A stretch of DNA of 64,000 bases from the NCBI RefSeq assembly GCF_900182705.1, contig NZ_FXTP01000002.1, positions 248,001 through 312,000 on the forward strand, written 5' to 3'. Under the pieces are notes generated by a model, which ran no database searches, was not told the origin of the DNA, and saw nothing but the letters and a program-made list of their open reading frames with translations. The translations under genes and the position numbers were made by a program. Shown here piece by piece: positions 31,088 to 36,069 of this stretch (position 1 is the stretch's first letter; every line of letters begins with the position of its first letter). This DNA comes from Gracilimonas mengyeensis. Its GTDB lineage: Bacteria > Bacteroidota > Rhodothermia > Balneolales > Balneolaceae.

Positions 31088-33298
31088 TTATTCAGCCTCC
31101 GCTTGCTGTGGTTTAAAGTTGGCCTGAATGCGATCGCTGGATGGCAATGCTTCCCAGGGGTTTTCATTCCCTTTGATGTCGATACCCAGACGTTGCATGT
31201 AGGCAATGATGGCAATAATCTTTTTGTCGGAGGTGATTTGGATGCCTTCGATTTCATCAAAACCATTTTGTCGAAGTCCGGCCACAATGTCGTCGGCCTG
31301 GGCTTCCAGGTCACGTAGTGCAATCTCTTCGTAACCTTCCACATACGGTACACCCACAGATCGCAGTGCATTGATGCGGTTCGGGATGGTTTCCTTGTCC
31401 ATATCCTGGGTAAACAGCCATGGATACGCAGGCATGATAGACCCGGGCGAAGTGGAAGTAGGATCGTACATGTGGCGCACGTGCCAGCTATCCGGATACT
31501 TCCCGCCAATGCGGTGTAAATCAGGACCGGTACGTTTGGAGCCCCAGAGGAAGGGGTGATCGTACACAAATTCACCGGCCTTGGAGTATTCGCCGTAGCG
31601 CTCGGTTTCAGAGCGGAACGGCCGAATCATCTGCGAGTGACAGTTATTACAGCCCTCAGCGATGTAAATATCACGCCCTTCAACTTCTAATGGCGTATAT
31701 GGCTTCACACTGGCAATGGTTGGTACGTTAGAATCAACCAGTGCGGTGGGCACGTACTCAATCACCCCGCCAATAAGAATTACGACCAGGGTAAGAGCAG
31801 TAAATTGCAGGGGACGAGATTCCAGGCGTCGGTGCCATTTTTCTTTGGTTCCGGCTGCCGGATCGATAATAGCTTGTGCTTCGTCTTCTTCATCCTTGAC
31901 AAAGGATCCTTGTCGAGCCGTGTAAATCAGGTTAATAGCACCAATTACGGCACCAATGATGAACAAGGTTCCGCCGATGGCACGCAGTCCATACATGGGG
32001 ATGATCTGTGTCACTGTTTCCAGGAAGTTGGGATACTGAAGCAGACCTTCAGAAGTAAATTCTTTCCACATCAGGCTTTGCGTGATGCCGCCCCAGTACA
32101 TGGGAATGACGTAGAAAATAGCCCCCATGGTAGCAAACCAAAAGTGTACGTTGGCCAGCTTCACGGAATAAAGTTTGGTTTTGTAAATGCGTGGAGTGAT
32201 GTAATACAGCATCGCAAAGGTTAAACCGCCGTTCCACAGTAGCGCACCGTTGTGTACGTGACCGATAATGTAATCGGAGTAGTGGGCAATGGCGTTTACG
32301 TTAGCGATGGAGAGCATCGGCCCCTCAAAGGTTACCATACCGTAGGCGGTAACACCAACCACCAGGAATTTCAGCACGGGATCTTCGCGCACACGGTCCC
32401 AGGCTCCACGAAGCGTGAGTAAGCCGTTGAGCATACCGCCCCAACTCGGAGCAATCAGCATAATACTGAACACGGTACCCAGGGCTTGTGCCCATCCGGG
32501 AAGTGCAGTATACAGCAAGTGGTGAGGTCCGGCCCAAATGTAGATGAAAATCAATGACCAAAAGTGAACAATAGACAGCCGGTAAGAGAAAATAGGCCGG
32601 TTAGCGGCCTTCGGGATGAAGTAGTACATAATCCCCAAAAACGGTGTGGTAAGGAAAAAAGCCACCGCATTGTGTCCGTACCACCACTGTACCAGGGCAT
32701 CCTGAATACCCGCATAAATGGGATAACTTTTCAGGAGGGTGGCTGGTACCTCAAAGGAGTTTACCACGTGTAAAACGGCCACGGTCACAAAAGTAGCAAT
32801 GTAGAACCAGATGGCTACATACAGGTGTTTTTCCCGGCGCTTCAGGATGGTCATAATCATATTCAACCCAAAAACCACCCAAATAATAGTGATGGCAATA
32901 TCAATAGGCCATTCCAGTTCGGCATATTCTTTACTGGTGTTGATGCCAAAAGGCAGTGTCAAAACTGCCGATACGATGATGGCTTGCCACCCCCAAAAGT
33001 GCAGTTGGCTTAATTTTTGGCTCCACATAGGGGTTTTACATAGCCGGGGCAGCGAGTAATACACGCCGTAGAAAATGGCATTCCCTGCAAAAGCGAAAAT
33101 AACCGCGTTGGTGTGCAGAGGACGCAAGCGCCCGTAGCTGAGTTCTGGTATGAAGCCGAGAAAATCCGGCCAGATAAGTTTTAGGGCAATAGTAAGCCCA
33201 ACGATAAAGCCGATGAGACCCCACAAGACCGTGGCCACCCCGAATTTCCGGACAATATCGTTATCGTAATGAAAGGTTTCTAAAGTTGATGAAGACAT
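31088..33298 (-). CDS. ccoNO: Fused cbb3 cytochrome c oxidase subunits I and II (CcoN-CcoO)
   Basis: A 736-residue fusion. Residues 1-480 are CcoN, the haem-copper catalytic subunit with about 12 membrane helices: RPLHTNAVIFAF (low-spin haem His) near 60, WWYGHNAVAF (CuB His) near 205, HFWSLIFIYIWAGPHHLLY near 245 with the His pair, and IIGHVHNGALLWN near 343. Residues 500-736 are CcoO: a membrane helix then a monohaem cytochrome c domain with CNNCHSQMIRPFRSE near 555 and a Met ligand in GSIMPAYPW near 621. It reduces oxygen to water and pumps protons at low oxygen. Fusion of N and O is common in Bacteroidota. Confidence 0.96.
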   Translation of the reverse strand: MSSSTLETFHYDNDIVRKFGVATVLWGLIGFIVGLTIALKLIWPDFLGFIPELSYGRLRPLHTNAVIFAFAGNAIFYGVYYSLPRLCKTPMWSQKLSQLHFWGWQAIIVSAVLTLPFGINTSKEYAELEWPIDIAITIIWVVFGLNMIMTILKRREKHLYVAIWFYIATFVTVAVLHVVNSFEVPATLLKSYPIYAGIQDALVQWWYGHNAVAFFLTTPFLGIMYYFIPKAANRPIFSYRLSIVHFWSLIFIYIWAGPHHLLYTALPGWAQALGTVFSIMLIAPSWGGMLNGLLTLRGAWDRVREDPVLKFLVVGVTAYGMVTFEGPMLSIANVNAIAHYSDYIIGHVHNGALLWNGGLTFAMLYYITPRIYKTKLYSVKLANVHFWFATMGAIFYVIPMYWGGITQSLMWKEFTSEGLLQYPNFLETVTQIIPMYGLRAIGGTLFIIGAVIGAINLIYTARQGSFVKDEEDEAQAIIDPAAGTKEKWHRRLESRPLQFTALTLVVILIGGVIEYVPTALVDSNVPTIASVKPYTPLEVEGRDIYIAEGCNNCHSQMIRPFRSETERYGEYSKAGEFVYDHPFLWGSKRTGPDLHRIGGKYPDSWHVRHMYDPTSTSPGSIMPAYPWLFTQDMDKETIPNRINALRSVGVPYVEGYEEIALRDLEAQADDIVAGLRQNGFDEIEGIQITSDKKIIAIIAYMQRLGIDIKGNENPWEALPSSDRIQANFKPQQAEAE

Positions 33299-33487
33299 TT
33301 ATTCATCCCGATGTTTTTGGTTGTTGTTTGATTCTTTTTTTGAAGCTTTTTTGTCGTCGAACAGCACGCGCATAGAGGGAGTGTATTGATCGTCAAACTG
33401 ACCGGATTTAACCGCCCAGAAAAACAGTCCCAAGAAAATGAGGGCTACCATCAGGCTGAAGCCAATAAGCAGGTACATCACTTCCAT
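33299..33487 (-). CDS. ccoS: cbb3 oxidase assembly protein CcoS
   Basis: A 62-residue protein with one membrane helix (MYLLIGFSLMVALIFLGLFFW) followed by the conserved AVKSGQFDD motif and a Lys/Ser-rich tail. CcoS is needed for cofactor insertion into cbb3 oxidase. It overlaps ccoI by 10 bases and abuts ccoNO. Confidence 0.93.
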   Translation of the reverse strand: MEVMYLLIGFSLMVALIFLGLFFWAVKSGQFDDQYTPSMRVLFDDKKASKKESNNNQKHRDE

Positions 33488-36069
33488 ATAGCGAGTCCTC
33501 CTTTGCGTGCAAAAAATCGTGTGGTAACAAATGTAAACACCATCACACTGATGGAACTTAGCGGCATCAATATGGCGGCTACCAGAGGCGAAAGTTGTCC
33601 CGTGATGGCAAAGCCTAAACCGATGGTGTTATACAACAGAGAAAGCACAAAACTTGCCATGATGATTTTCATAGAGGCTTTGCTGAAATCAATAAAATCG
33701 TTGAGTTTAGAAAGGGAATCTCCTTCCAGTATGGCATCACAAGCCGGGGCAAAAGAGCTCACATCATCGGCCAGGGCAATCCCAAAATCCGCTTTTTTTA
33801 AGGCTCCCGCATCATTCAGTCCGTCGCCTACCATAATAACCTGCTCGCCATTTTTTTGTAATTGAGTAATAAAAGCCAGCTTCTCCTCCGGTTTCTGATT
33901 GAACAGAAGGGAACCATTAGATCCAAAATAATCACTGAAGGCCGACTTCTGCGCTTCGTTATCCCCGGAAAGCAGGTACGTGTTAAATGTTTCTTTGATG
34001 GAAGCCAGAAGATTATGAATTCCGTCACGAATACCTGCTTCAATCCCAAAAAATCCGCGATACTCTCCGTTGATCGAAAGATGTACCGTGGAGCCGTTGA
34101 ATTCGTTTTGGGGAATATTCTCTAAGCTGAGAGCGGCTTGATCCACAAGAAATGCTTTGGAGCCCAGGCAAATAAGTGTTCCTTCTACTTCTGCAAAAAT
34201 GCCCTTGCCGGGAATTTCCTCAAAAGAAGATATTTCTGCCCGGTCATTGCGAGGAGCATCATTATTTGAAGCAGGACTCGAAAGGCTTTCGACGAAGCAA
34301 TCTCCCTGATTACGCCCGGCTGCCATTGCAGGCAGATTGCCATGTGATTTGCTCGTTTCACTCGCTGAATCCCTCGCAATGACGGTCGTTAGGTAGTTTG
34401 CCACTTTCCGGCTCAAGGGATGTATGGAGTTCTTACAGGCCGATTTGACCCATATTTGTTCCTGGGCCGACAATTCTCCTCCAATAAATTTCACTTCGGC
34501 GGCCTCATTTTCGGTAAGGGTACCGGTTTTATCAAATACAATAGAGGAAGCTTTGGAGAGATTTTCCAGCAGCAGGTGATTCTTGACAAACAGTCCGTTT
34601 AGCGAAAGCACATTAAGGGCCGAACCCAATGTAAACGGGGTAGAAAGCGCCAGGGCACAAGGGCAGGCTATAATTAATACCGCCGTAAAAACGGAGAGAG
34701 CCGTTTCCATGCCGGCCGTTTCCAGCCAGTACAAGCCAGAGAAAAAGGCAATGCCCAAAACCGAAATCGTAAAGTAAGGACTGATTTTATCGGCAAAAGT
34801 GGTCAGCTTCAGCTCCTTGTCATTGTTTTGGAAAGCTTCATGGTTCCATAACTTAGTGAGGTAGCTGTTGGTAACTTTCTCTTCTGTTTTAAGCAGGGCT
34901 GCATTTCCGATTAAGCGTCCACCCGCAAAAACCCGTTCTCCTTTTTTCACCGTAACGGGCTCAGATTCTCCGGTGATAAAACTGTAATCCAAAAAGGCCT
35001 CGTCGGAAATCAGAGTAGAATCACAAGGAACGAGTTCCTGATTTCGTAAACGCATTTGCTTGCCGGGCTCCAGCTTATCCAGTGAAACGGAATATTCCTC
35101 GCCGTTATCATTCAAAACATTAACCGCAATCGGGAGGTATGAGCGGTAATCCCTGTCAAAAGAAAGTCGGTTAAAGGTTTTTTGCTGTACCAGTTTCCCG
35201 ATCAACAAAAAGAAAATGAGCCCGGTGAAAGAATCCATGTAGCCGGTGCCGGTCAGGGTCACAATCTCGTACACGCTTTGGCTAAAAAGGGCCACGATGC
35301 CAATGGAAATAGGGACATCAAGGTTTACCCCGCGCTGACTCAAAGCCGCAAAGGCTGATTTCAAATAATCACTGCTGCTGTACACCAACACGGGAATAGC
35401 CAGGATGATATTCAAAGCGCCAAAAAGGAGATGAAAATTGCCCCCCAGTCCGCTGCCGGTGGTATCCAGGTAATCCGGAAAGCTAAATAGCATGATGTTG
35501 CCAAAGGCAAAACCGGCCACACCCATTTTAAGCCACAGCGAGCGGTTTCGGTGCGCTTTTTCCGATTTGGCATCCAACTTATCCATCCGGATTTCTGGCT
35601 CGTAGCCAATCGTAACCAGCTGCTCTACTACATCCCGCAACGTGGTTTTATCGCTATCAATCAACAGCGAAAGTTCACGTTTTAAGAAGTTGACCGAGCT
35701 TTGGAGTACACCTGGATCTAATTTCTGAAGGTTTTCAAGCAACCACACGCAGGATGTACAATGAATATTGGGGATGTATAAAGTAAGAGAGAGTTTATTG
35801 GCGTCACGGAAGTCCGTGATTCGGTTAATGACTTCCTCATCCTCCAGGTAATCGAAACGCGCCCGGTGTTTGGTATTTTTCAGGTTGATGCCCGGATTGG
35901 CGTCAAGGTCATAATAGGAACAGAGTCCGCTTTTATCCAGAATTTGATAGGCGGCCTTGCATCCGCTGCAACAAAAAGCTTTGTCGTCAAAAAACACGGA
36001 TTCTTCTGCACACTCCTCCCCACAGTGATAGCAAACATGAGATGATATGGCTGCTTTCGTGGTTTTCAT
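33478..36069 (-). CDS. ccoI: Copper-translocating P-type ATPase CcoI with in-frame repeat insertion
   Basis: An 863-residue P1B ATPase that moves copper for cbb3 assembly. The N-terminus has a zinc-finger-like Cys cluster (CYHCGEEC near 13, CCSGCKAAY near 33) and an HMA-like domain with CTSC near 103. Eight or so membrane helices follow; CPCAL near 470 is the ion-binding motif, FITGESEPVT near 362 the actuator, DKTGTLTENE near 513 the phosphorylation site and MVGDGLNDAGAL near 765 the hinge. Residues about 563-609, in the nucleotide-binding domain between HPLSRKVANYL and FEEIPGKGIF, come from a 141-bp palindromic element. The other motifs are intact, so the enzyme may still work. It overlaps the Rrf2 gene by 4 bases. 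Confidence 0.94.
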   Translation of the reverse strand: MKTTKAAISSHVCYHCGEECAEESVFFDDKAFCCSGCKAAYQILDKSGLCSYYDLDANPGINLKNTKHRARFDYLEDEEVINRITDFRDANKLSLTLYIPNIHCTSCVWLLENLQKLDPGVLQSSVNFLKRELSLLIDSDKTTLRDVVEQLVTIGYEPEIRMDKLDAKSEKAHRNRSLWLKMGVAGFAFGNIMLFSFPDYLDTTGSGLGGNFHLLFGALNIILAIPVLVYSSSDYLKSAFAALSQRGVNLDVPISIGIVALFSQSVYEIVTLTGTGYMDSFTGLIFFLLIGKLVQQKTFNRLSFDRDYRSYLPIAVNVLNDNGEEYSVSLDKLEPGKQMRLRNQELVPCDSTLISDEAFLDYSFITGESEPVTVKKGERVFAGGRLIGNAALLKTEEKVTNSYLTKLWNHEAFQNNDKELKLTTFADKISPYFTISVLGIAFFSGLYWLETAGMETALSVFTAVLIIACPCALALSTPFTLGSALNVLSLNGLFVKNHLLLENLSKASSIVFDKTGTLTENEAAEVKFIGGELSAQEQIWVKSACKNSIHPLSRKVANYLTTVIARDSASETSKSHGNLPAMAAGRNQGDCFVESLSSPASNNDAPRNDRAEISSFEEIPGKGIFAEVEGTLICLGSKAFLVDQAALSLENIPQNEFNGSTVHLSINGEYRGFFGIEAGIRDGIHNLLASIKETFNTYLLSGDNEAQKSAFSDYFGSNGSLLFNQKPEEKLAFITQLQKNGEQVIMVGDGLNDAGALKKADFGIALADDVSSFAPACDAILEGDSLSKLNDFIDFSKASMKIIMASFVLSLLYNTIGLGFAITGQLSPLVAAILMPLSSISVMVFTFVTTRFFARKGGLAIWK
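34243..34383. repeat. Palindromic REP-like element inserted in ccoI
   Basis: The ends GTCATTGCGAGG (34243-34254) and CCTCGCAATGAC (34372-34383) are perfect 12-bp inverted repeats. The interior has gaagcaatctccctg and ggcagattgccatg arms, typical of the GTCATTGCGAGG palindromes known from many intergenic sites in Bacteroidota and relatives. Length 141 is divisible by three and no stop is read on the coding strand. Confidence 0.85.

Follow-up and report, generated by a model that had tools for sequence, protein, structure and literature searches.

A paired palindromic element in the coding frame of the copper ATPase gene ccoI of Gracilimonas, a candidate family of protein-coding palindromes in Balneolota

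REPINs, which occur with RAYT transposases, consist of paired inverted REP units and are mostly intergenic. The protein-coding palindromes of Rickettsia (RPEs) are described in one review as palindromic repeats of about 150 bp with an open reading frame, nearly half of which lie in frame inside varied genes (PMC10969869). The same account presents RPEs as unusually frequent in genes, in-frame fusions by intragenic MITEs as not unusual, and a similar route of protein evolution as conceivable in other prokaryotes (PMC10969869). The CGTC-tagged REPs of Di Nocera et al. 2013, among them RPE-4, RPE-6 and Neisseria dRS3, are reported also in Bacteroidetes, and that description already includes intragenic REPs outside Rickettsia (PMC3733652). 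In enterobacteria, the intragenic repeat units RU-1, RU-2 and RU-3 are described as small and mobile, with open frames that are fused to genes, some involving signal peptides (PMC2759123).

Here we analyze a palindrome inside a copper ATPase gene of Gracilimonas mengyeensis, a member of a genus that NCBI taxonomy places within Balneolota. The window is the whole stretch of DNA that was analyzed, 64,000 nucleotides in length; we label its genome G000, and a second species of the genus, Gracilimonas sp., G028. It is highly probable, in our assessment, that the palindrome belongs to a paired REP-like (MITE-like) element which Gracilimonas carries in many copies, and that this copy was inserted in a loop of CcoI and is translated as a tolerated 47-residue segment.

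A palindrome within the nucleotide-binding domain of CcoI

The gene and the parts of the element are as follows.

33478..36069, minus strand: ccoI-type P1B copper ATPase, 863 aa (open reading frame; PF00122, PF00702, PF12156, PF00403; motifs)
34243..34383, minus strand: palindromic element, 141 bp, reading as residues 563-609, VIARDSASETSKSHGNLPAMAAGRNQGDCFVESLSSPASNNDAPRND (sequence, repeats, fold, alignment)
34331..34383, minus strand: unit A of a head-to-head pair (short-loop type), GTCATTGCGAGGGATTC...GGCAATCTGCC (sequence against family alignment; inner limit by eye)
34243..34306, plus strand: unit B of the pair (long-loop type), GTCATTGCGAGGAGC...CGACGAAGCAATCTCCC (sequence against family members; inner limit by eye)
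34243..34254, plus strand: terminal inverted repeat GTCATTGCGAGG (exact motif match)
34372..34383, minus strand: terminal inverted repeat GTCATTGCGAGG (exact motif match)

The element is thus laid out as a shorter unit A, a spacer and a longer unit B, head to head, with limits drawn by eye. Its two ends, exact and inverted, are the only matches to GTCATTGCGAGG with at most one mismatch in the window, where 0.22 are expected, and two or more such matches arose in 2 of 100 shuffles of the window. Folded as RNA on the coding strand, the 141 nt give z = -3.35, and 0 of 200 shuffles were as stable. The preliminary description of a 141-bp palindrome with repeat ends at this position is therefore borne out. 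The element begins and ends at codon boundaries (GTC ATT GCG AGG ... CCT CGC AAT GAC) and, being 141 bp long and free of stops, reads as a 47-residue segment that leaves both flanks in register, again as described.

A motif scan places TGES at residue 366, CPC at 469, DKTGT at 513, HP at 550 and GDGLNDA at 748. D513 of DKTGT and H550-P551 precede the insert and GKG (621-623) follows it, which puts the insert within the nucleotide-binding domain, between the phosphorylation site and the rest of that domain, where it had first been located. In a sequence alignment of CcoI with the solved CopA (3j09), the aligned blocks end at query residue 554, just past HP, and resume at 617, before the G-x-G; this gap suggests that the insertion site lies in a length-variable loop of the domain. 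No target-site duplication at the ccoI insert is evident by eye in the alignment with empty-site relatives. As a separate observation, a 736-aa open reading frame near ccoI, at 31088-33298 of the window on the minus strand, looks by eye like an apparent fusion of ccoN and ccoO.

Relatives provide the empty sites. Some CcoI match was present in 89 of the 92 family genomes, and among the 30 best family CcoI loci aligned, the insert is absent from 28 and present in G000 and G028. When 75 named sequences are added to these loci, the 47 insert columns are filled in 2 of 105 sequences, again G000 and G028. Counted from H550 through E618, the stretch spans 69 residues in these two, and the remaining 103 sequences have 23-34 residues there (73 of these have 24), so that the alignment proposed earlier as a check does return a clean insertion into a short loop. 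It also refines one figure: the element encodes 47 residues, as was claimed, and yet the net gain is 45, since 69 residues are to be set against a commonest loop of 24. By a hand count on aligned DNA, the flank without the element measures 66 nt in G000 versus 72 nt in close relatives. The idea that the insert is confined to the G000 genome is wrong, as G028 also has it.

A repeat family and its copies in other genes

The 12-mer GTCATTGCGAGG has 31 exact occurrences in the 4.67-Mb G000 genome, against 1 for a backward control, so the search for further copies of the ends that had been suggested finds them. BLAST with the element in G000 returned 43 places at E <=10, with 15 at E <0.001, itself included. 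Across nine genus genomes, a frame-blind survey of regions fetched around motif and profile hits (G024 and loci lacking coordinates, among them the element-bearing L024, left out) yielded at least 179 distinct element hits, of which 7 lie in recognized genes, 10 overlap short open reading frames and 162 meet no open reading frame by the rule used. This agrees with the initial view of a type of element otherwise found between genes. Counted by open reading frame, 19 rows overlap surveyed elements: 7 recognized or conserved genes, and 12 rows (10 hits) that are frames of 102-161 aa. In G000, 26 of the 31 end-motif sites fall outside open reading frames of at least 100 aa, a count that omits frames running off the locus and so misses the GH31 copy described below. 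A search restricted to pairs found 65 distinct paired element sequences. At the level of the phylum, 12 of 394 genomes contain the strict full-pair pattern; as the interiors are in some cases quite unlike that of the element, the end motif is more widely spread than the element.

Several observations concern the form that the repeats take. At L413 (G360) and L406 (G093), the same end motif encloses different interiors, and in G093 the paired pattern has 79 matches per strand. Regular arrays of the end motif occur at L295 (G000:C5:216.7-218.3 kb), L293 (G026:C3:915-917 kb) and L294 (G029:C4:221-222 kb), with spacings of about 232, 184 and 212 bp; they resemble amplified pairs, unlike scattered insertions. 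In a high-copy G000 subfamily (L035, L036, L044, L048 and others), similarity extends beyond the 141-bp ends, for example gtgagttcgatataaaa, which suggests that the repeated unit of this subfamily is longer than the palindrome.

A RAYT was considered as the mobilizer and rejected, as the element shows no association with the Y1-transposase genes of G000. Within about 1.5 kb of the five Y1_Tnp genes of this genome there is no end motif with 0-1 mismatch; a single end-like sequence, differing at 2 positions, lies near L093. A Y1-type transposase gene situated just left of the window (G000:C2:247206-247550; L092, L297) has inverted repeats AAACCCCGAACGGGGTT, which are not the element.

Copies in frame were found in other genes of the genus. 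In G022, G026 and G029, a protein that is probably secreted and has a signal-like N-terminus carries an element there in the same frame; its G029 sequence gave no Pfam match, and the G023 orthologue begins MKTMKRILTTGLM, without the element. In G023, a TPM-domain protein carries a same-frame element at its N-terminus, after the corresponding start codon and before the signal peptide, and in five of the nine genus orthologues (G000, G022, G026, G029 and G024) MRR or MRK leads straight into the signal peptide with the element absent. At the far end of this G023 element (L288, G023:C16:19417-19556) there is an ATG that shares the frame of the TPM signal peptide and from which translation might start instead. 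At the N-terminal copies, translation could begin downstream of the element. The frame-blind survey added a GH31 protein of G000 with the element at its N-terminus, in a frame that differs from that of the other three genes. This copy is only probable because the genus offers only distant relatives (~26% identity) and the N-terminus lies partly in a longer repeat present on both sides. One frame is thus used in three of the four host genes (ccoI, secreted protein and TPM, with GH31 differing).

A peptide profile searched against the 92 family genomes recovered the G023 copy as residues 1-36, along with 5 full-length stop-free copies whose open reading frames measure 452-885 aa. With G023 added, a five-peptide profile searched against 244 class genomes gave eight full-length matches listed, six of them open (frames of 319-885 aa); these six are ccoI twice, the secreted protein three times and TPM once, and the other two matches listed contain stops. 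The profile was built from genic peptides and therefore favors their frame, for which the frame-blind survey serves as the check. Among 17 unit-A elements, the coding frame is open in 5, namely those of ccoI and the secreted-protein gene, and has 1-4 stops in the remaining 12, GH31 included. The same-frame copies in the ccoI, secreted-protein and TPM genes point to a protein-coding palindromic element family of Gracilimonas.

History of the insert shared by two species

The G028 insert occupies the identical site, is 141 bp long without any indel and is 73% identical to that of G000. Inside the insert, the two species differ with pS 0.186 and pN 0.296 (ratio 1.59, bootstrap 0.78-4.46), and pS outside it is 0.669. 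Four-fold sites of ccoI are identical at 124 of 290, and the insert has therefore changed less than silent sites. Because of this smaller difference, the insert probably spread or arose after the split of the G000 and G028 species, perhaps by short-tract recombination.

The trees bear on the same question. The CcoI tree groups G000 with G024 (support 97/94); the topology test rejects a clade of G000+G028 (p-AU 0.018) but not one of G000+G028+G025 (p-AU 0.114). The two ccoI inserts form a group in the element tree at 87/89, on a branch that was not starred. Beside the insert, G000 is closer to G028 than to G024, with identities of 0.73/0.40 over 15 nt on the left and 0.75/0.57 over 48 nt on the right; further out this reverses, to 0.56/0.76 for residues 526-550 and 0.53/0.69 for residues 623-647. 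This pattern is suggestive of one insertion event followed by transfer of the insert from one lineage to another on a short tract. Of 32 windows over ccoI, 10 favor G028 as nearest to G000, 5 are tied and 17 favor G024, and since G028 is favored in so many, the flank signal next to the insert is only suggestive.

That the insert was already present in the ancestor of the six-species clade, never moved between species and disappeared cleanly from the other lineages is a possibility that we take seriously while thinking it doubtful. The site and flank length, alike in G000 and G028, fit such an ancestry, as do the G000+G028+G025 clade that was not rejected and the several ccoI windows beyond the insert that favor G028 over G024. 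It would demand two or three clean losses by our count, and it is at odds with the G000+G024 grouping, with the rejection of G000+G028 and with an insert whose divergence is below that of silent sites. It is unlikely that two different element copies entered one ccoI site independently, as among 17 aligned elements the inter-unit spacer is alike, by eye, only in the two ccoI inserts.

The two inserts have fared differently. Matching end positions number 12 of 15 in G000 and 9 of 15 in G028. Of six copies folded, the G000 copy (z = -3.35) and three others (z = -3.10, -5.62 and -6.09) fold strongly, and z is +0.49 for the G028 copy and -1.01 for the G023 TPM copy. The coding frame is the sole open frame of six in the G028 and G023 copies, and the G000 copy has one more open. 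Judged from these sequences, the palindrome of the G028 ccoI copy has decayed and its coding frame has been kept. In a simple simulation, the chance of the frame staying open through 38 random changes was 40%, so that openness of the frame is supportive rather than decisive.

The translated segment and its relation to known palindromes

In the explanation that we favor, a copy of the element would have entered the CcoI nucleotide-binding domain at a loop of variable length that lies between the HP and GKG motifs, presumably by transposition-like movement. The peptide would actually be made and would sit as a tolerated surface loop, its exposure being suggested by the variation in loop length and the CopA alignment, and the frame would be held open mainly through the need for the downstream part of CcoI. 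This explanation draws on the repeat family, the empty sites, the frame, the purifying selection on ccoI, the homologous insert of G028 and the in-frame copies elsewhere.

The 47-residue peptide might also have been recruited, with a function of its own such as pump regulation or partner binding, and be selected as protein. We regard this as improbable. In its favor, two species retain the insert, five aligned peptides have K-S, G-N-L and Q-G-D in common, and at the secreted-protein locus G022 and G029 differ with pN 0.178, below pS 0.395. The conserved core of the peptide, however, falls by eye where the DNA of the element is itself conserved, and the CcoI inserts, with pN/pS near 1.6, give no sign of amino-acid selection between G000 and G028. 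At the secreted-protein locus, identity between G022 and G026 reaches 120 nt upstream of the insert and is therefore regional. We give similarly little weight to the bolder proposal of an active peptide cassette, in which a 140-141 bp subfamily, open in one fixed frame, would repeatedly enter coding regions in that frame (three unrelated genes), would even have moved between species within ccoI on a short tract, and would in some copies be selected as protein; were it true, the palindrome would supply Balneolota with material for building new protein segments.

Less probable still is that the palindrome is kept for its nucleic-acid structure, as a hairpin of the ccoI mRNA or as a DNA site, with translation incidental. 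Strong folds in 4 of the 6 copies folded, that of the window included, would fit this, as would the 73% identity of the insert set against 124 of 290 four-fold sites. The frame, however, is open where the fold is lost, in G028, or weak, in the G023 TPM copy, and Rfam gave no match to the element at E up to 1. We set constraint on RNA structure low because the G028 copy no longer folds.

Compared without the insert, CcoI of G000 and G028 gives dN 0.141 and dS 1.667 (near saturation), a ratio of 0.084, and pN/pS ranges from 0.035 to 0.614 in 47-codon windows outside the insert. Relative-rate counts set changes unique to G000 against those unique to its sister G024. Over all CcoI sites they are 38:33, 45:28 and 40:39 with G021, G025 and G028 as outgroups, and over residues 525-672 they are 6:6, 7:6 and 5:11. 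Selection on ccoI does not appear to have been clearly loosened by the insert, although one of the three whole-protein counts (45:28) leans to faster change. That ccoI is a dying pseudogene and the insert debris has no supporting point that we could find and merits hardly any credence against the full-length frame, the P-type motifs present and the strong purifying selection seen at the sequence level. By these signs ccoI is a living gene under purifying selection, and with empty sites in relatives and in-frame copies in other genus genes, the original proposal of an in-frame insertion into a living gene stands.

In its behavior the element is close to the RPEs. It is palindromic and multicopy, its 141 bp compare with about 150 bp, and it lies in frame within unrelated genes (ccoI, the secreted protein and TPM) whose relatives have empty sites. 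It differs in that its host belongs to another phylum and is free-living, unlike Rickettsia, and in that few of the many Gracilimonas copies are genic. NCBIfam holds RPE models, and the four insert peptides searched against it gave no match at E up to 10, which places them in none of the RPE peptide families modelled there; against Pfam none scored above the cut-off, and one match at E 0.11 fell below it. The likeness to Rickettsia first drawn is thus apt as an analogy of behavior; the searches of curated protein models found nothing related to the peptide.

With CGTC-tagged REPs, as characterized in their published description, the element shares the GTC-AT end, head-to-head pairs, the apparent lack of a dedicated transposase and occasional in-frame genic copies (PMC3733652). 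The units defined there have an 8-9 bp stem and a 4-5 nt loop (PMC3733652), unlike the Gracilimonas units, which by eye measure about 53 and 64 nt and have long loops. A C precedes GTCATYGCGAGG at 105 of 259 element ends, against a background C of 19%, and the window element has CGTC at one end and GGTC at the other. RU-1/2/3 are alike as small mobile repeats with open frames fused to genes, a likeness by published description (PMC2759123), and differ in their hosts. The paired inverted, mostly intergenic units recall REPINs, from which the Gracilimonas element is set apart by having no GTAG tag and by not flanking the G000 Y1-transposase genes. Because no NCBIfam or Pfam model matched above cut-off and the unit architecture departs from the CGTC stem-loop definition, we propose that this is a new family of protein-coding palindromes, RPE-like in its working and not to be filed as RPE. 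Our literature searches, which lay outside subscription journals and took only the top results of broad queries, returned no prior report of the Gracilimonas family; this fits the remark that such an element is rarely noted in this phylum, two of the searches being very broad and covering only the top of long lists.

The habit best known from Rickettsia thus also occurs in a distant phylum, Balneolota. In the family found there, several genes serve as hosts, relatives show unoccupied sites, a single frame prevails and one decayed copy is still open; the existence of named Gracilimonas strains makes tolerance and function directly testable. The finding bears on the reach of protein-coding palindromes, beyond Rickettsia, as a source of new protein segments.
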